This document shows, in pieces, positions 28,375-34,343 of a stretch of 34,343 nucleotides of DNA (the stretch's first letter is position 1; every line of letters begins with the position of its first letter). Source of the DNA: Sinomicrobium soli (GTDB lineage Bacteria; Bacteroidota; Bacteroidia; Flavobacteriales; Flavobacteriaceae); NCBI RefSeq assembly GCF_003285545.1, contig NZ_QLNV01000023.1, positions 1 through 34,343 on the forward strand, in the 5' to 3' direction. The position numbers and the translations under genes are program-made. The notes beneath the pieces are model-generated. The model ran no database searches and had not been told where the DNA came from. It saw only the letters and a program-made list of their open reading frames with translations.

Positions 28375-30501
28375 TTAGTGTTCTGCGGAAACAGGAGTTA
28401 TTTCCAGGTTGTCAAAACGGACATTCGACCAGGAATCACTCGCAGAGAAAAAATCCTTGCATCCTTCCCCGAGAGAGCCGAGGGCAATATTGCCGTTTTT
28501 AAAAGTATCGTCAACCACTTCGCCTACTTTTTCATCTCCGATAAATACCCTGATCACAGGACCGTTGAGCTCCAGCGCGACGGTGATCCATTGTTGAGTG
28601 TCTATCCCCGGCACAGTACCGGACAACAGGCTGATAAACTCGCCCGTATTCCAGTTGCTCGGGTTTTCAGAAGGGTCCTTTCTGAGGAGCTCCCATGTTC
28701 CGTGGTGGTCGAGAGAGAGCCAGTATCCTTCTAACAGAAAAGTCCCGCCATTGTCCCCGTTACCGTCAAATCTTCCGCTTAACATGACCTTGCCGGGATT
28801 TTCCATAAACACATCTGCCTGAACCCTGTAGTCGGTCCACGCGATATCTCCTATTTCAGTGAGGGGCTGTTTCAGCGGTCTGGTATGCCACATACGCGGA
28901 GCTTCAGTAACCACTTGTCTCAGCGAATTTCCCTTGTGGCCTTTTCCCGAATCTGCAATGGTAAACACCCCGTTGGCGTCGATAAAATACCGGGCCATCC
29001 CGTCTTTTTTATAGCCGTCGAAATTTTCGGTGTAAGGGAACGGAAATTTTCCGGACGGGGGAATTACCGTAGTTCCGCGGCCTTGTCCCGTTGTGGTAGA
29101 CAGGGTGTAGACACAATCCTTATCGAGGTGAACCTTAATTTTCCTTTTGCCGGCTGGAGTGGCCTCTCGCTGTTTAAACCATTCCGAAGGCTTCATGAAG
29201 TCAGAGCGCCAAAGTTGTACAGGCTTTTCCGGGAGATCGTCGGATAACCGGACCTCCACGTCTACGCCTTCTTCCGGAAAATTTTTGTCATAAGTGTTGA
29301 ACACCAGGGTATAGTTGTCTCCTTCAGGAGCCCTGAAGGCAATAAATTGTCCCGCCCGGGTCCCGTTCTGCTCATACACATGATGTTTTCCGGTATCCAG
29401 GATATCCCATCCGGGTGCTGTGAACTGGGTAAAATGAGAAAAGGCCCAAAGGTTGGAACCTATCTCGTAATGCCCGCTCCAGGGTTCGTCGGCATTTATA
29501 AAACCGTTGGAAGCCCACGGCATATTATCGTATACGGAAGCCGTCATGGACCAGCGTATGATACCGTTCATTTTTACCTCCAGCAACAGCCTGATGATCT
29601 GGTTTACCCAGCCATATCCGCTTTTTATGTTCCTGTAGCTTCCCCCTCCGTCTTCGGTAGACCAGATCTCCTTATTGAACGTATAGGCGGCATCGGGCAT
29701 AAAACCGGAGGGGCGGCTTTTGTAGTGCACCCCGATAATGTCTACGGCTTTGGCGTAAAGAGGTTCTTCCTGCATTTTGTCGACGACCTGGAACTTTTTT
29801 ACCATAGCCCCTTCATCGGCCGCGACGATCTTTACACTGTCATAACCATTATTGTCGAGCAGCTGCCGTAATTTTATGGTCATTGCGGTATTGACATGTG
29901 CCTTGTGGTCTTTGTATTGCTCGTTCTGGTTACCCCCGATATAATCGATATGCAGGCCGTGCTTTTCTTTTGCTCCCCGTACAAAACCGAAAACAAATTC
30001 CGCTTTCTGGTCGTCTGTTTTCGCCCATGCGGGATACCCCCAGTGCAGGGCGGAAAGTTTAATACCGGGATTTCTCTTTTTGGCTTCCTTCATCAGCCAC
30101 CAGACATATCCCCGTTCGAAATCCGGTGTTTCCTCAAGAGTCCTTTTGTAACTGGGCCAGGAAACAGCCGTATTGTTCCCGTCGTAGCCTATTTCCACCT
30201 TGAGTACCTGCAGGGATGCCCCGTAACCGGGCAGGAAAAGGTAGTCGAGGATCTCTGATCGCTGCGGTTCGGGATAGTCGTACAGCAGTTTTTCATAACT
30301 CGGTATGGCGCCCAGCCCCCTGAAGGTGTTCAGGATGGCGGTCCCGTCTATGTCAATAACCTGCCGCGGGATCGCCGGCTTTCGGGATACGGAATCCGAA
30401 AAGATCACAGGGCAGGCTTCTATGGGGTTTCCGTAAGCGGAAAGGACAATGACCAGTGTTGCAAGGTAAGGCAGTATATAGTGCCGGAGATGTTTTTTCA
30501 T
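28375..30501 (-). CDS. GH59 galactocerebrosidase-like glycoside hydrolase
   Basis: The 708-residue protein has an N-terminal signal (about 1-24). The barrel matches animal galactocerebrosidase (GALC, GH59) closely: FRGLGAI at 60-66, YPEPQRSEILDYLF at 76-89, GASLQVLKVEIG at 94-105 and WWLMKEAKKRNP at 134-145. The proposed acid/base is E194 in GGNQNEQ (GALC Glu182 context) and the nucleophile E283 in IWSTEDGG (GALC Glu258 context). After the barrel come a beta-sandwich (about 350-470) and a lectin-like C-terminal domain (about 495-700), the same order as in GALC. GALC is a retaining beta-galactosidase of galactolipids. Here the PUL context suggests a beta-galactoside in a sulfated glycan. It is unlikely to be a lipid enzyme, but that is inference. 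Confidence 0.85.
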   Translation of the reverse strand: MKKHLRHYILPYLATLVIVLSAYGNPIEACPVIFSDSVSRKPAIPRQVIDIDGTAILNTFRGLGAIPSYEKLLYDYPEPQRSEILDYLFLPGYGASLQVLKVEIGYDGNNTAVSWPSYKRTLEETPDFERGYVWWLMKEAKKRNPGIKLSALHWGYPAWAKTDDQKAEFVFGFVRGAKEKHGLHIDYIGGNQNEQYKDHKAHVNTAMTIKLRQLLDNNGYDSVKIVAADEGAMVKKFQVVDKMQEEPLYAKAVDIIGVHYKSRPSGFMPDAAYTFNKEIWSTEDGGGSYRNIKSGYGWVNQIIRLLLEVKMNGIIRWSMTASVYDNMPWASNGFINADEPWSGHYEIGSNLWAFSHFTQFTAPGWDILDTGKHHVYEQNGTRAGQFIAFRAPEGDNYTLVFNTYDKNFPEEGVDVEVRLSDDLPEKPVQLWRSDFMKPSEWFKQREATPAGKRKIKVHLDKDCVYTLSTTTGQGRGTTVIPPSGKFPFPYTENFDGYKKDGMARYFIDANGVFTIADSGKGHKGNSLRQVVTEAPRMWHTRPLKQPLTEIGDIAWTDYRVQADVFMENPGKVMLSGRFDGNGDNGGTFLLEGYWLSLDHHGTWELLRKDPSENPSNWNTGEFISLLSGTVPGIDTQQWITVALELNGPVIRVFIGDEKVGEVVDDTFKNGNIALGSLGEGCKDFFSASDSWSNVRFDNLEITPVSAEH

Positions 30502-30589: not shown

Positions 30590-31939
30590 TTAAAGTAACC
30601 TCTGAGGCTCCCATCCTTTTTCATACTCCCTTGTCCATAAGGCTCTGGCTTTTCTGCTGTTTTTAATATGTCCGTTTTCAGGATTACATTCCAGAGTCTC
30701 TCCGGTGCGGTATGAAATATTAGCGAGATGACAGAGCAATGTACTTTTGACCCCTTCTTCAATAGGGGAATTGAGCTGCTCTTTTCCTCGAATGGTTTCG
30801 AAGAAATTGACTACATGAGCAGTAGAGATATCTCCGCCGCCACCAAGCTGGGTTCCTGCTTCAGAACCACCTCCTTTACGTTCTTTTATAGATTTTCCAT
30901 TACGGTCATATAAGGTATACCCCGTGCGGTTTACCAGAACGGAACCTTCCGTTCCGTAAATAAGGGTTCCTCTTCCCTTGCCATAGGTATTATATCCGTT
31001 CCGGCTTTTTCCGTCCCAGTTAATGGTTTTACTGTTGCCTTCAAATTCAAAAGTAGCGTTCATGGTATCATACATGCTCCATCCGTCCTCTGGCCAGTGT
31101 CTTTTTTCAGCTTGACAGATCACTTTTTCCGGAAAATTTACCTTTAGGGCCCATCTTGCAATATCAAGTTCATGTGTTGCATTGTTTCCCGCTTCCGCGG
31201 TTCCGAAATCCCATCCGTACCAGTGCCAGTTGTAATCCCAGGTGTCGTGGGTATATTCCCTTCTCGGAACAGGCCCCTGGAAGAGATCCCAGTCCAGGCC
31301 TTCAGGTACGGAAGCTTTACGGGGAGCAACAACCTGACCACGGTTTGCGGAATAAAAAGCGACAGCCTGATATGGATGTCCGATGATACCATTATGGATC
31401 TCCCGGATAATCTCTATACTGGGGAGGGAAGAACGTTGCTGATTTCCCATTTGAACGATCTTATTATATTTTTTTTGGTAGGCGATAATAAGTTCTCCCT
31501 CTTTCGGATTATGGCTGCAGGGTTTTTCCACATAGGTATGTTTACCTGCTTCCAGTGCGAGCCATGTTCCCGGCGCGTGCCAGTGATCTGGAGTGGCATT
31601 CAGGATGGCATCCACATTTTTGTCTTCAAGTACCTTAAAGAAACTGTTTTCGAGTATCGGAGTTTCGGAAAGCCCCTTTTCCGCAAATCTTTTTGCGGCC
31701 TTTTCACGCTGTGATTTCATGACGTCGCACAAATAACTCAGATTAATATTACTTTCCTTTCGAACTACGGGATTTATATAAGCTCCGAGCCTTCTGCCTA
31801 ACCCTACAATAGCTATATTGAGTCGGTCATTAGCCCCTATTATGCGATTATAGCTTTTGGCAGTAAATCCCAGGGTGCCTATAGTGGAGAGCCCTGCAGT
31901 AGCCAAAGCCGAGTTTTTTATAAAAGACCTTCGTTTCAT
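30590..31939 (-). CDS. Gfo/Idh/MocA-family oxidoreductase, Tat-exported
   Basis: The product has 449 residues. The start MKRRSFIKNS is a twin-arginine signal (R3-R4), so the protein folds with its cofactor and is exported to the periplasm. The NAD(P) motif IAIVGLGRRLGA has glycines at 46, 48 and 52. The dinucleotide-family box E138-K139-P140 is in YVEKPCSHNP, and NNATHELDIARWAL is the C-terminal substrate-domain helix with its histidine. Members oxidise sugars (often at C3), and one branch, GH109, uses bound NAD+ to hydrolyse glycosides. The gene lies 7 bp after a double-DUF1080 gene, so both are co-expressed. Composition is lower in GC than the genes on either side. Confidence 0.88.
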   Translation of the reverse strand: MKRRSFIKNSALATAGLSTIGTLGFTAKSYNRIIGANDRLNIAIVGLGRRLGAYINPVVRKESNINLSYLCDVMKSQREKAAKRFAEKGLSETPILENSFFKVLEDKNVDAILNATPDHWHAPGTWLALEAGKHTYVEKPCSHNPKEGELIIAYQKKYNKIVQMGNQQRSSLPSIEIIREIHNGIIGHPYQAVAFYSANRGQVVAPRKASVPEGLDWDLFQGPVPRREYTHDTWDYNWHWYGWDFGTAEAGNNATHELDIARWALKVNFPEKVICQAEKRHWPEDGWSMYDTMNATFEFEGNSKTINWDGKSRNGYNTYGKGRGTLIYGTEGSVLVNRTGYTLYDRNGKSIKERKGGGSEAGTQLGGGGDISTAHVVNFFETIRGKEQLNSPIEEGVKSTLLCHLANISYRTGETLECNPENGHIKNSRKARALWTREYEKGWEPQRLL

Positions 31940-31946
31940 ATAGCTG

Positions 31947-33341
31947 CTATTTTAATTCTTTTATTTTAATATTTTTAAAACTGACTTTGTTGCCGTGATC
32001 CTGAAGTAAAATATGACCTTCCGTAGCTTCACCGAAATTTTTCCATATTTTGTGTTTGCTTTGTGTTACGAGATTCCGGAATGCTTCGGACCCTCGATGG
32101 TATTCCAACACTTTAGCTCCGTTGAGGTAATGCTCTACCTTGTTGTCTGGGTATACGATTACCCGACCTTTGTTCCATTCTCCTACGGGTTTTACGAACC
32201 GGGACTGTTTTTTGGCAGCGATCAGGTCGTATAGGGAGGCCAATGTGCGATTACCGTTACGCCCTTTTTTAGCATCGGGGTGTCTTTTGTCATCCAGAAT
32301 CTGGTATTCCGGGCCTATGGCTGATCCCGGGTTATTTTCGGAGAGGGTAACGAAATATTTTACCCCGCTGTTTGCTCCTTCTGTTAGCTGAAAATCAAAT
32401 GCGAGGTCGAAAGTACTATACTCATTCTTGGTAACGATATCTCCAACATTGGCAGACTCCTCTCCTCCGGAGGCTTCTATAGAAAGTATCTCGTTGTTTA
32501 CGGTCCATCCGGAAGCGGGGAATTGATCTTTATATGCGCCAACCCATCCCTGACCATTTTTTCCATTAAAGAGCAGTTGCCATCCGTGATCTTTTTCATA
32601 TGTTGTAAGTTCATTTTTTAGATTATTAACCACAAAAACGTCCTTTTTAAAAGGCGTGGACTTCAAGTTTTTTGTTTTTATCCTGATATTTTTGAAATAG
32701 GTCCTGATACCCTCATGCTTCGGGTTTGCAATCTTGTGCACTTGAAAGCCTATAAATCCGCGGGCATCAGCGTCATCTGCGATATAAGATGTTTCCACAC
32801 CATTAATCCATGTCTTGATCTCATGGCCTATAGCTTCGATATGAAAAGTATTATATTGACCCTTTTTGAATGCCTTTTGTGATTCCGGATTAAGAGAAAG
32901 AGGATATAACCATTTTCTACGCCCTTCATCAAAAATTCCGCCAGACCAGTTTCTTTCTGTAGGATCTATTTCCACCTGATAACCATACACCAATCCTTTA
33001 CCGTTCTTTCCGTCCGGATCATAATGGCTTCGTATCTGAACTCCGGAGTTGCCGAAATCATCCTCTACTTTGACATCCACTTCCAGGATAAAATCATCGT
33101 ATTGTTTTTCAGAGACGAGGAAGGTGTTGGGAGTTTTAGATCTGGTGATACCCACAATGGCGCTGTCTTCTACAATGAAGTCTGCTGTTCCCGTAATTTT
33201 TGTCCATCCGTTGAGGGTTTTTCCATCAAACAGGTAATCCCACTCGTCACTCTGCTGTTTTTTTTCAGGAGTGCATTGAGCAAGGCATAAAGATGTCATG
33301 AGGCTCATAACAGATAGTTTGATAATTTGTGTCTTTTTCAT
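31947..33341 (-). CDS. Lipoprotein with two DUF1080 (3-keto-disaccharide hydrolase) domains
   Basis: The product has 464 residues with a lipobox LAQC at C23. The first domain (about 33-225) begins WDYLFDGKTLNGWTKI and includes FGNSGVQIRSHYD and FHIEAIGHEIKTWINGVET. The second (about 252-464) begins WQLLFNGKNGQGWVGAYKD and includes EGANSGVKYFV, PEYQILDDKRHPDA and KVEHYLNGAKVLEYH. Each is a concanavalin-like beta-sandwich of the family renamed 3-keto-disaccharide hydrolase because some members cleave 3-oxidised glycosides. Tandem copies in one chain, tethered to the membrane and encoded beside an exported sugar oxidoreductase, suggest an oxidise-then-cleave system. The start ATG at 33341 gives a good signal. 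Substrate and activity are inferred. Confidence 0.87.
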   Translation of the reverse strand: MKKTQIIKLSVMSLMTSLCLAQCTPEKKQQSDEWDYLFDGKTLNGWTKITGTADFIVEDSAIVGITRSKTPNTFLVSEKQYDDFILEVDVKVEDDFGNSGVQIRSHYDPDGKNGKGLVYGYQVEIDPTERNWSGGIFDEGRRKWLYPLSLNPESQKAFKKGQYNTFHIEAIGHEIKTWINGVETSYIADDADARGFIGFQVHKIANPKHEGIRTYFKNIRIKTKNLKSTPFKKDVFVVNNLKNELTTYEKDHGWQLLFNGKNGQGWVGAYKDQFPASGWTVNNEILSIEASGGEESANVGDIVTKNEYSTFDLAFDFQLTEGANSGVKYFVTLSENNPGSAIGPEYQILDDKRHPDAKKGRNGNRTLASLYDLIAAKKQSRFVKPVGEWNKGRVIVYPDNKVEHYLNGAKVLEYHRGSEAFRNLVTQSKHKIWKNFGEATEGHILLQDHGNKVSFKNIKIKELK

Positions 33342-33473
33342 AGGGTTTTATAAAGTATTTATATTTAAATTTCTAACACCTCACATAAGATTAAAAATGC
33401 TTTGGTGGCAGTGTCCAGGTGCTTTTTTCTCCTTCCGTACGGAGAGGAATTCTTTTTTTGGCCCGAGATTATT

Positions 33474-34343
33474 TTACAGCGGATGTAAGTTATATTCGGG
33501 ATTCCATGACTGAACGGTTCCAGTGTACAGGGAGGTATTGGCCAAAGCGGCACATATGGCAGTGGTACCCCCGGTATACACATTGGAATCAGGCAAGGTG
33601 TTTTCGGAAATGGCACTGTAAAAATCTCTGAAGGCATAATAGCTGCCGTCTTTTAGCTTTTCGTTACTCAGCTTGATACCCTTTTTATCCTTACTCCAGG
33701 TTAGTTTTGTAGCGCCACTTACCCCGTCTACCTCCTCCAGCTCTTTCCGGGTTTCGGGTTCGGGGTAAAAGAGACCATTACGTATCAATAGAGATACAGT
33801 GCCTTTGGAACCCTTGATACGGAAGGAGTACCCGTCGTGCTGATTAGAACAAGTAACCCCGAAATTGCCTATCATACCCTCTTTTTCATACCTGATATTT
33901 ACCTGAACGTTGTCATAGGTTTCCCTGCCGTCCTTATACCGGTCTATGCCCCCGGTGCCGTAGATGGTGGTGGGCCTGCAGTCGAAGGCCCAGTGGATAA
34001 AGTCCATCTGGTGGGAGAGCAGTTCGGCGGGAAGCCCCCCGGAATATTCCCGGTACATCCGCCAGTTGATCTTTCGTTCCAGACCAGGGTCGGGTACCGG
34101 CCTGCGCCAGTCCGAATTGCGGTCCCAGCGGGCATCGATCTGGGTCACCTTGCCGAGATAACCGTTCTGTATCATCTGCTTTACCTTATAATAGACGGGA
34201 GAATACCGGTACTGGTGTCCTACCTGCAGGGTCTGTTTTTTATGTCTGCCGGCAATATCTACCAGTTGAAGGGCCTGTTCCGGGGTAAAGGTCATGGCTT
34301 TTTCGAGCATGACATGCTTTCCGGCTTCCAGGGCATCTCTGGC
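33474..34343 (-). CDS. Gfo/Idh/MocA-family oxidoreductase, 5' end outside the window
   Basis: About 290 codons are visible and the frame stays open to the right edge, so the Rossmann N-terminus lies beyond it. The visible part starts ARDALEAGKHVMLEKAMTFT, whose E-K-A replaces the more usual E-K-P. It continues with QVGHQYRYSPVYYKVKQMI, GKVTQIDARWDRNSDWRRP, the cofactor/substrate helix GGLPAELLSHQMDFIHWAF (His in the expected place) and the beta-sheet domain. It is a second member of the family in this locus, not a close duplicate of the one at 30590-31939. Whether it has a Tat signal cannot be seen. It probably heads this part of the operon, 132 bp upstream of the DUF1080 gene. Confidence 0.85.
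   Translation of the reverse strand, partial: ARDALEAGKHVMLEKAMTFTPEQALQLVDIAGRHKKQTLQVGHQYRYSPVYYKVKQMIQNGYLGKVTQIDARWDRNSDWRRPVPDPGLERKINWRMYREYSGGLPAELLSHQMDFIHWAFDCRPTTIYGTGGIDRYKDGRETYDNVQVNIRYEKEGMIGNFGVTCSNQHDGYSFRIKGSKGTVSLLIRNGLFYPEPETRKELEEVDGVSGATKLTWSKDKKGIKLSNEKLKDGSYYAFRDFYSAISENTLPDSNVYTGGTTAICAALANTSLYTGTVQSWNPEYNLHPL

Follow-up and report, generated by a model that had tools for sequence, protein, structure and literature searches.

Organization of the locus

The window analyzed here is one whole contig of Sinomicrobium soli, 34343 bases long, and the assembled sequence therefore stops at its right edge. Its far end carries a three-gene cassette on the minus strand, transcribed in the order GFO1, tandem DUF1080 gene, GFO2 (Table 1). 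The start of GFO1 is lost because the gene is truncated by the contig end. A GH59 gene begins 88 bp downstream of GFO2 on the same strand, and Pfam matches place SusC, SusD, three sulfatases and a GH2 in the same neighborhood. Coordinates and Pfam matches agree with the first-pass annotation, which had described two GFO/Idh/MocA genes flanking a two-domain DUF1080 gene, with one junction of 7 bp, next to a PUL of this content.

Table 1. Features of the cassette and the adjoining gene
Feature	Position	Strand	Details
GFO1, GFO/Idh/MocA oxidoreductase	33474..34343	(-)	289 aa; PF22725 2e-20, PF01408 3e-6 (Pfam)
Tandem DUF1080 (PF06439 x2) putative lipoprotein	31947..33341	(-)	464 aa; Pfam 266.5 bits, two stretches
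First DUF1080 domain	32676..33245	(-)	strong PDB match to 4jqt only; residue conservation
Second DUF1080 domain	31959..32585	(-)	PDB matches and residue conservation
Intergenic gap, tandem DUF1080 gene to GFO2	31940..31946	(-)	7 bp
GFO2, GFO/Idh/MocA oxidoreductase, twin-arginine type	30590..31939	(-)	449 aa; Pfam, PDB and NCBIfam matches
GH59 gene	28375..30501	(-)	Pfam GH59 3e-86; first gene of neighboring SusC/D-sulfatase-GH2 locus

The tandem DUF1080 protein

The protein scored 266.5 bits against PF06439, a family now named '3-keto-disaccharide hydrolase' (cut-off 26.8). By eye, it has a lipobox-like start, LCLAQC. The solved protein 4jqt (BT3469) is a full-length relative (E = 1e-134). In an alignment of 82 rows (80 tandem homologs, 4jqt and the window protein), residues Q122, E124, R130, Q200, V201 and H202 of the first domain are kept in 81–82 rows, as are E345, Y346, Q347, D350, H354, D356, R365, Y371, D372, Q447 and H449 of the second. 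Both domains thus carry Q-x-His together with near-invariant polar residues.

PDB matches of the second domain included 4jqt, 3hbk, 8v31, 3osd, 8rr2, 8tda and others, of which the first five alignments were inspected. Aligned to 8v31 and to 3osd and 8rr2, which we take to be BT2157, this domain contains the solved-member motifs EYQ, LD..HPD, R, LYD and QDHG. From the numbering, the histidine of QDHG would correspond to H275 of PMC13273386. The HPD and LYD motifs are absent from the first domain in both the PDB comparison and the 82-row alignment. The concern that the DUF1080 domains might lack the active-site residues of tested members is not borne out, as the second domain retains these motifs. 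The protein is proposed to be a 3-keto-glycoside lyase/hydratase.

The two oxidoreductases

GFO2 begins with the Tat-type sequence MKRRSFIKNSALATAG, and a TatC gene is present elsewhere in the genome. RR-x-F starts were found in 30 of 31 GFO2-like proteins. Possible RR-x-F starts were also seen in all 13 GFO1-like genes examined elsewhere, with start codons picked to fit the motif and one gene (locus L009) split over two frames. The first-pass annotation had assigned a Tat signal to one oxidoreductase. This stands for GFO2, but the restriction to a single enzyme appears to be an effect of the cut GFO1 gene, because 13/13 relatives have the twin-arginine motif at a possible start.

The top PDB sequence matches of GFO2 were 8tdf and 8tdh, the AL3 glucoside-3-dehydrogenase (8tdf, E = 1e-26). 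Inositol dehydrogenases followed from 7e-7, and no chain named GH109 or alpha-N-acetylgalactosaminidase was present among the 38 matches. The best NCBIfam model was NF058561 (BT_2158_fam), with 140.3 bits, missing the equivalog cut-off of 750. The AlphaFold model of GFO2 has a pLDDT of 81.5; in a Foldseek search DgpA1 came first, AL3 third and a 1,5-anhydrofructose reductase in seventh place, all lying within some 1.5 orders of magnitude. The catalytic set of the GFO family is Lys/Asp/His. K139 and H256 are present in all 31 GFO2-like proteins, as is Asn252 at the position of the AL3 Asp. GFO2 is proposed to be a glycoside 3-dehydrogenase.

GFO1 was compared through its full-length ortholog in a congener (G297). 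Among the PDB matches listed (60 of 82), the top match was 8tdi, a glucuronide-3-dehydrogenase (E = 1e-17), with which the ortholog has W-x-R-P and W-R stretches in common. None of the matches listed, again 60 of 82, was a GH109- or alpha-N-acetylgalactosaminidase-named chain. The highest NCBIfam score was to inositol 2-dehydrogenase (105 bits, under the cut-off of 355), and the score against NF058561 (81.1 bits) missed the equivalog cut-off of 750. By rank among the PDB matches listed, neither GFO2 nor the GFO1 ortholog is closest to GH109 or inositol dehydrogenases, an outcome that would have counted against the original proposal. The assignment of GFO1 is less clear, because inositol dehydrogenases score from about 6e-11.

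Linkage of the genes in other genomes

Of 55 loci whose flanks are long enough, 40 have a GFO homolog within 2.5 kb of the tandem DUF1080 gene, versus 1/39 in a control interval at 7–9.5 kb. A second sample of tandem DUF1080 genes, chosen irrespective of neighbors, gave a nearby GFO homolog in at least 30 of 43. The pairing exceeds chance. The order GFO1, tandem DUF1080, GFO2 is the same in G297 and G299, and in two congeners the trio is located elsewhere, adjoining a cobalamin adenosyltransferase gene.

The 3-keto-glycoside chemistry suggested at first pass is supported by the nearest solved relatives and the kept DUF1080 motifs, although both GFOs score well under every curated equivalog cut-off, that of BT_2158 included. 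The cassette is likely to carry out oxidize-then-cleave chemistry.

Proposed mechanism and substrate

The best explanation, which we consider reasonably probable, is that the cassette is an exported oxidize-then-cleave module, acting most likely on hexuronides and placed recently, as a patchwork, beside the PUL. In the proposed scheme, a Tat-exported GFO with bound NAD(H) would oxidize a glycoside at the 3-hydroxyl of its non-reducing sugar. The DUF1080 lipoprotein would eliminate the aglycone from the resulting 3-keto-glycoside and hydrate the 2-hydroxy-3-keto-glycal to a 3-keto-sugar, perhaps with one step per domain. Reduction of the 3-keto-sugar, by that same GFO or by the other, would then regenerate NAD+ without a cytosolic partner. 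Which GFO oxidizes and which reduces is likewise part of the proposal.

The position of tandem DUF1080 genes near glucuronate isomerase suggests hexuronides as substrate. This isomerase was found within 10 kb of tandem DUF1080 in 6 of 42 genomes from four families (three of the six being one genus), where 0.18 would be expected. Counted by locus, it was present in the fetched flanks of 10/80 and in none of the DNA examined at 70/80; within the genus studied here, none of the five genomes with a tandem DUF1080 gene (the present one, G297, G299, G094 and G300) has the isomerase near it. All four isomerases tested with NF002794 scored above its cut-off. Locus L009 also has a PfkB-type kinase, a KDPG-type aldolase and an SDR of the D-mannonate-oxidoreductase type. 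Two further pointers are the similarity of the GFO1 ortholog to glucuronide-3-dehydrogenase, its nearest match, and a paralogous DUF1080x2-GFO2 pair that adjoins GH88 in the S. soli genome. Hexuronides, that is acidic sugars, may therefore be the most likely substrate class.

A stricter version would make the cassette a hexuronide-specific machine, in which a Tat-exported GFO of the GFO1 type would serve as uronide 3-dehydrogenase, the DUF1080 domains would split elimination and hydration between them, the redox cycle would be completed by the second GFO, and free uronic acid would pass to glucuronate isomerase. As a complete scheme this is possible but rather unlikely. If true, Bacteroidota would own a self-contained exported uronide route beside polysaccharide lyases and GH88-type hydrolases, and the cassette would be movable and insertable beside different PULs. 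The study of oxidize-then-cleave glycan degradation is still recent, and few substrates are known. The tie to glucuronate isomerase would offer a concrete substrate class for the two-domain DUF1080 family, whose solved member 4JQT (BT3469) is termed hypothetical in the part of PMC6560043 consulted.

Relationship to the neighboring PUL

The first-pass annotation had regarded the cassette as a possible branch of the PUL. On this reading, cassette, GH59, sulfatases and GH2 would form one PUL attacking one sulfated galactan by both hydrolysis and oxidation-elimination. The shared strand and the 88-bp distance between GFO2 and GH59 favor this reading, and the cassette may be co-transcribed with the PUL. 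In addition, compact SusC-containing loci with paralogous DUF1080x2-GFO2 pairs occur in the genus. G300 has SusC-SusD-sulfatase-DUF1080x2-GFO2, where SusC/SusD were identified with tblastn and the other genes with Pfam. Contig C33 of the S. soli genome has SusC, a gene whose position suggests a SusD-like product, GH88 and DUF1080x2-GFO2. Because such pairs follow SusC-type genes, the coupling of DUF1080x2-GFO2 to PULs in general looks real. Moreover, GH2 proteins 48–49% identical to that of the window lie 0.3–3.1 kb from tandem DUF1080 in 4/80 loci, all from related genera.

Nevertheless, the conservation in other genomes that a joint system would predict was not seen. No DUF1080 or GFO gene was found in the fetched DNA of 12 other GH59 loci (tblastn, and a profile with a positive control), nor was GH59 found at any of 80 tandem-DUF1080 loci. 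The closest GH59 relative (76%), in G297, is on a different contig from that genome's closest cassette, and in G505 the two are about 312 kb apart. Base composition also argues against a common origin. GC3 changes sharply near 33.4 kb and again near 30.5 kb, on either side of DUF1080x2-GFO2, which has a GC3 of 0.41 versus a mean of 0.59 for 44 sampled ORFs of the genome. Low GC3 is not confined to this pair, as the left-end genes of the window are also low (0.44–0.53). The one-PUL reading is therefore unlikely: the cassette does not look to have evolved as part of the GH59/sulfatase PUL, and the two-mode system and the galactoside substrate proposed earlier are unsupported. As the cassette–GH59 neighborhood was not refound in the other genomes examined, adjacency alone is a poor guide to a joint system.

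The preferred reading, a patchwork module, draws on the history of the genes. GFO1 has a paralog on contig C12, with 91–99% identity over the first 500 bases and 63–82% over the remainder. GFO1 is probably a mosaic gene; the recombination reading is only suggestive, because GC3 of the C12 copy also falls along its length (0.76 to 0.64). From sequence comparison, a patchwork cassette was probably set beside the PUL recently, and recombination may have shaped it.

Other explanations

It is distinctly improbable that one or both GFOs are GH109-like glycosidases or inositol/aldose oxidoreductases and that DUF1080 is mainly a lectin-like glycan binder. The generic fold, reflected in the close Foldseek scores of GFO2, the inositol 2-dehydrogenase model that leads for the GFO1 ortholog below cut-off, and Asn252 in place of the AL3 Asp are consistent with such roles, but no GH109-named chain appeared among the PDB matches listed. 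For DUF1080, the partial superposition of 4JQT on a levanase beta-sandwich domain, described in the portion of PMC6560043 consulted, and a weak mutual cross-match of the DUF1080 and GH59 profiles point to binding; the near-invariant polar residues and Q-x-His in both domains are beyond expectation for a binding module, and the strong GFO–DUF1080 linkage argues against either role. A draft-assembly artefact, with a wrong join around 30.5 kb or inside GFO1, would fit the sharp GC3 changes and the final 77 bp of the contig, which exactly match the end of C12, but is very improbable given the three-gene order in G297 and G299, which would make a false join simplest in the 88-bp gap.

Comparison with known systems

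The oxidation-elimination pathway BT2156-BT2160 of Bacteroides thetaiotaomicron comprises, in published extracts, the glycoside 3-dehydrogenase BT2158 and the DUF1080 enzyme BT2157; according to one of these, growth on raffinose-family sugars was not impaired in BT2157/BT2158 mutants. Here too, GFO and DUF1080 are encoded together, and BT_2158_fam is the best NCBIfam model of GFO2. In contrast, the DUF1080 protein of the cassette is a tandem fusion, GFO2 and the GFO1 relatives have twin-arginine starts, and GFO2 reaches 140 bits where the equivalog requires 750. BT2156 is presumably a xylose-isomerase-like protein. No such partner (PF01261) was found among the scanned window proteins by Pfam, the DNA upstream of GFO1 being missing in this genome, and a two-sequence profile of low sensitivity found none in the window, nor in the five stretches around the cassette that were fetched from the genus (L139-L143). 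Two PF01261 genes adjoin DUF1080 genes on contig C6 of the S. soli genome. As a separate observation, C6, not the window, encodes a GMC oxidoreductase, which we take to be of the LacA type.

Alistipes AL3 (8TDF, 8TDH) is the best PDB sequence match and a high Foldseek match of GFO2, but has 23% identity over the fold and an Asp at the position of Asn252. The P2B11 glucuronide-3-dehydrogenase (8TDI), best PDB match of the GFO1 ortholog, shares W-x-R-P and W-R with it but is otherwise distant. BT3469 has the same two-domain DUF1080 architecture along its entire length. In the Caulobacter LacABC/DUF1080 lactose route, as far as the published excerpt describes it, a 3-keto-glycoside is likewise formed first and periplasmic DUF1080 cleavage is proposed to follow; the dehydrogenase there is membrane-bound LacABC, whereas the cassette has a GFO. 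The cassette thus resembles known bacterial oxidize-first sugar cutting, yet seems to be a separate patchwork unit.

Composition of the cassette

The last 3.8 kb of the window, which is one entire contig (C15, 34,343 bases) of the 4.6 Mb draft genome, carry a cassette on the minus strand. It consists of GFO1, a Gfo/Idh/MocA oxidoreductase gene truncated by the contig end with loss of its start, a gene for a protein with two DUF1080 (PF06439) domains (DUF1080x2) and a second oxidoreductase gene, GFO2. A GH59 gene lies 88 bp past GFO2, followed by SusC, SusD, DUF3823, two sulfatases, a hybrid two-component regulator, GH2 and a third sulfatase, which form the neighbouring PUL. The first-pass annotation had described the cassette beside this PUL, the 7-bp junction between DUF1080x2 and GFO2 and the twin-arginine start of GFO2, and all three were confirmed. 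No tRNA genes were found in the window.

As judged from sequence, the cassette probably encodes two Tat-exported oxidoreductases around one lipoprotein. Export of both oxidoreductases is proposed because GFO2 has a twin-arginine start, because all 13 GFO1-like genes from elsewhere have the motif at a possible start (starts chosen to fit; one gene, at locus L009, is split into two frames) and because TatC is encoded in this genome. A lipobox-like start was found by a simple pattern search in 34 of 80 tandem homologues. Reading of the DNA to the right was ruled out, the window being a whole contig. Neither a 77-bp probe nor the protein encoded upstream of GFO1 in the congener G299 (best match 31% identity, others OmpA-type) revealed the contig adjoining GFO1.

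Elsewhere in the window, next to the PUL, three consecutive genes encode an SDR, an ArsO-like flavin monooxygenase (289 bits against a cut-off of 425) and a luciferase-like monooxygenase; their GC3 is below that of the PUL. The closest solved relatives of the GH2 protein are 7sf2 and the beta-D-galactofuranosidase 9j6n (E 3e-146), with classical beta-galactosidases far behind.

Coordinates of the features discussed, in the window (C15), in other contigs of the same genome and in the congener G300
Feature	Contig	Position	Strand
Short Arm-DNA-bind_5 (integrase-type) protein	C15	1847-2389	
AbiEi/AbiEii pair	C15	2502-4149	
SDR and two monooxygenases	C15	7590-10599	
GH2	C15	12682-14913	
GH59	C15	28375-30501	minus
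GFO2	C15	30590-31939	minus
DUF1080x2	C15	31947-33341	minus
GFO1 (truncated)	C15	33474-34343	minus
Second GFO1 copy	C12	68663-69523	
Distant DUF1080 gene	C12	50988	
Single-domain DUF1080 locus L101	C6	1-14000	
Single-domain DUF1080 locus L103	C33	near 445.8-448.6 kb	
Five-gene locus L142	G300:C42	8011-17037	

Association with the GH59 locus

A 3-keto-glycoside branch attached to the GH59 PUL, giving a two-mode glycan degradation system, had been proposed in the first-pass annotation. GH59 was searched at the family level in 299 genomes (11 matching, including this one) and at the phylum level in 395, with PF02057 matches in 71; by kinship labels, the host family comprises at least 236 sampled genera. 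Three of the 395 genomes, this one included, matched below 1e-80, the next best match being at 2e-16. Most of the phylum-sample matches were not informative and were taken as cross-matches of related families, presumably GH30.

Twelve GH59 loci besides that of the window were examined, with flanks mostly of 7–11 kb per side. The GH59 proteins of 11 of these are 29–36% identical to the window's, and sulfatases and GH2 are frequent around them. tblastn found no DUF1080 or GFO homologue at any of the 12. The loci were rescanned with profiles because tblastn had overlooked a distant DUF1080 gene of this genome on C12. The DUF1080 profile recovered that gene, which lies outside its training set and served as positive control, and at the 12 loci the profiles again found no DUF1080 or GFO gene, the between-family matches being weak cross-matches only. 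Within the flanks fetched, which vary in length, no GH59 gene was found near tandem DUF1080 at 80 loci, the best 80 of 139 confirmed relatives. The congener G297 carries a 76%-identical GH59 on its contig C5 and a 74%-identical cassette on C27, and in G505 GH59 and tandem DUF1080 are both present about 312 kb apart. With no recurrence in either set of loci and the two parts unlinked in these two genomes, the two-mode GH59 PUL is unsupported, and GH59 coupling as a conserved system was rejected. Co-transcription of the cassette with GH59 is possible.

An oxidising branch within PULs, as a general idea in this genus, is reasonable because PUL-coupled pairs exist on contig C33 of this genome and in the congener G300. 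The C33 pair, a second tandem DUF1080–GFO2 pair at 53% and 60% identity, follows a SusC homologue, a gene that is SusD-like by position, and GH88. The G300 locus is compact, with the five genes SusC-SusD-sulfatase-DUF1080x2-GFO2, and makes a more clear-cut candidate for a true oxidising PUL than the window does.

Two loci of this genome hold single-domain DUF1080 genes. L101 has two of them alongside two GFO genes, two genes for xylose-isomerase-like proteins and one each for an MFS symporter and a GMC oxidoreductase, while L103 has two adjacent ones and a GFO gene, like the tandem fusion as split genes.

Placement and origin

In the congeners G297 and G299 the trio is flanked by cobalamin adenosyltransferase/SecA on one side and a collagen-like gene on the other; in G094 GFO2 is missing from this site. 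At the matching site on C12 of this genome, a second GFO1 is all that is kept of the trio; its stop codon falls 2 bases from the start of the adenosyltransferase gene, with neither DUF1080x2 nor GFO2 between the two genes. Pfam checks of genes at this site covered the C12 copies and G299. The two contigs that carry a GFO1 copy share an identical terminal stretch of 77 bases, like contigs that meet at a branch of an assembly graph.

The GC3 of DUF1080x2 is 0.41 and that of GFO2 0.42, against a background with a mean of 0.59 and a minimum of 0.49 (44 ORFs from five stretches of this genome, not the whole genome). Their counterparts in G297 and G299 have values of 0.55–0.61 and the PUL 0.57–0.65; genes at the window's left end are low as well (0.44–0.53). 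The first 500 bases of the two GFO1 copies are 91–99% identical and the remainder 63–82%, and along the gene GC3 falls from 0.69 to 0.51 in the window. Read most simply, a cassette of lower GC would have arrived and the resident gene would have converted part of its GFO1. This reading is suggestive only, because the C12 copy likewise shows a drop in GC3 along its length (0.76 to 0.64) and congeners, too, vary more at the 3' end.

To the left of the PUL, an AbiEi/AbiEii type IV toxin–antitoxin pair and a short Arm-DNA-bind_5 protein suggest the remains of a mobile island.

Substrate of the cassette

Hexuronides are the best current guess for the substrate, because glucuronate isomerase is co-located with tandem DUF1080, GFO1 resembles a glucuronide dehydrogenase and GH88 lies beside the C33 paralogue. 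Considering only the copy in the window, a hexuronide substrate has less than an even chance.

A glucuronate isomerase homologue occurs in the fetched DNA of 10 of the 80 tandem loci, and all four homologues tested scored above the cut-off of the glucuronate isomerase model NF002794. All six loci whose GFO2 is 67–69% identical have glucuronate isomerase, a LacI-type regulator and an SDR; the two SDRs tested are of the D-mannonate-oxidoreductase type. In a class-wide draw, glucuronate isomerase lies within 10 kb of tandem DUF1080 in six of 42 genomes versus 0.18 expected from genome sizes (Poisson 4e-8, a value that ignores kinship). These six represent four families, three of them (G374, G407 and G486) being of one genus. 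The 42 exclude four of the 46 matching genomes, namely this one and G539, G658 and G1010, in which the second domain only was matched. The count also leaves out a single-domain copy that lies 7.3 kb from glucuronate isomerase in G635, and the entries for this isomerase in four congeners, none of them near. The genus is treated separately: its five genomes carrying tandem DUF1080 have no glucuronate isomerase near it. In the class-wide draw, a GFO gene lies near tandem DUF1080 in at least 30 of 43 cases.

Judging by titles and abstract openings, no publication was found on DUF1080 with GH59 or on a GH59 PUL of this arrangement, nor on tandem DUF1080 with glucuronate isomerase, the last not being a search term. 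The hexuronide lead is new and testable.

Comparison with known systems

According to five papers (PMC9007349, PMC11300592, PMC11501099, PMC10628242 and PMC6560043), BT2157 is a 3-ketotrehalose hydrolase and BT2158 a periplasmic glycoside 3-dehydrogenase, with normal growth of BT2157/BT2158 mutants on raffinose-family sugars. DUF1080 is linked there to lactose use in Caulobacter, and Agrobacterium operons are predicted to deglycosylate via oxidation, elimination, hydration and reduction.

DUF1080x2 and 4jqt, which PMC6560043 names BT3469, are related from end to end (E 1e-134). Near-invariant polar residues (81–82 of 82 rows) are Q122, E124, R130, Q200 and H202 in the first domain and E345, Q347, D350, H354, D356, R365, Y371, D372, Q447 and H449 in the second, which aligns with 3osd, 8rr2 and 8v31 at its conserved motifs. 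The H275N variant of the B. thetaiotaomicron 3-keto-O-glycoside lyase is without hydration activity (PMC13273386); from chain numbering, we infer that H275 would be the QDHG histidine.

The first-domain DUF1080 profile weakly matches the G297 GH59 gene (L117; E 2e-4) and the GH59 profile weakly matches five DUF1080x2 genes. These cross-matches may reflect the C-terminal lectin domain of GH59.

The nearest solved sequences to GFO2 are 8tdf and 8tdh (E 1e-26), titled in Foldseek as the Alistipes glucoside-3-dehydrogenase AL3. By fold, DgpA1 came first and AL3 third, the query TM-score of AL3 (0.67–0.68) being the highest among the matches listed. The top NCBIfam model, BT_2158 glycoside 3-dehydrogenase (NF058561), gave 140 bits versus a cut-off of 750, and GFO2 is therefore not a BT_2158 equivalog. 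GFO2-like proteins have Asn252 (31 of 31) where AL3 has Asp, which counts against simple transfer of function. The 3-keto-glycoside chemistry proposed earlier nevertheless appears likely for the cassette from the nearest relatives of its GFO and DUF1080 proteins and their conserved residues; equivalence to BT_2158 did not hold.

Among NCBIfam models, inositol 2-dehydrogenase scores best against the full-length G297 orthologue of GFO1, at a value far under cut-off. In the 13-row GFO1 alignment, W195-R196-R197 and N209-W210-R211 do not vary. The nearest solved sequence to the G297 orthologue is the glucuronide-3-dehydrogenase 8tdi (E 1e-17), with which it has W-x-R-P and W-R stretches in common.
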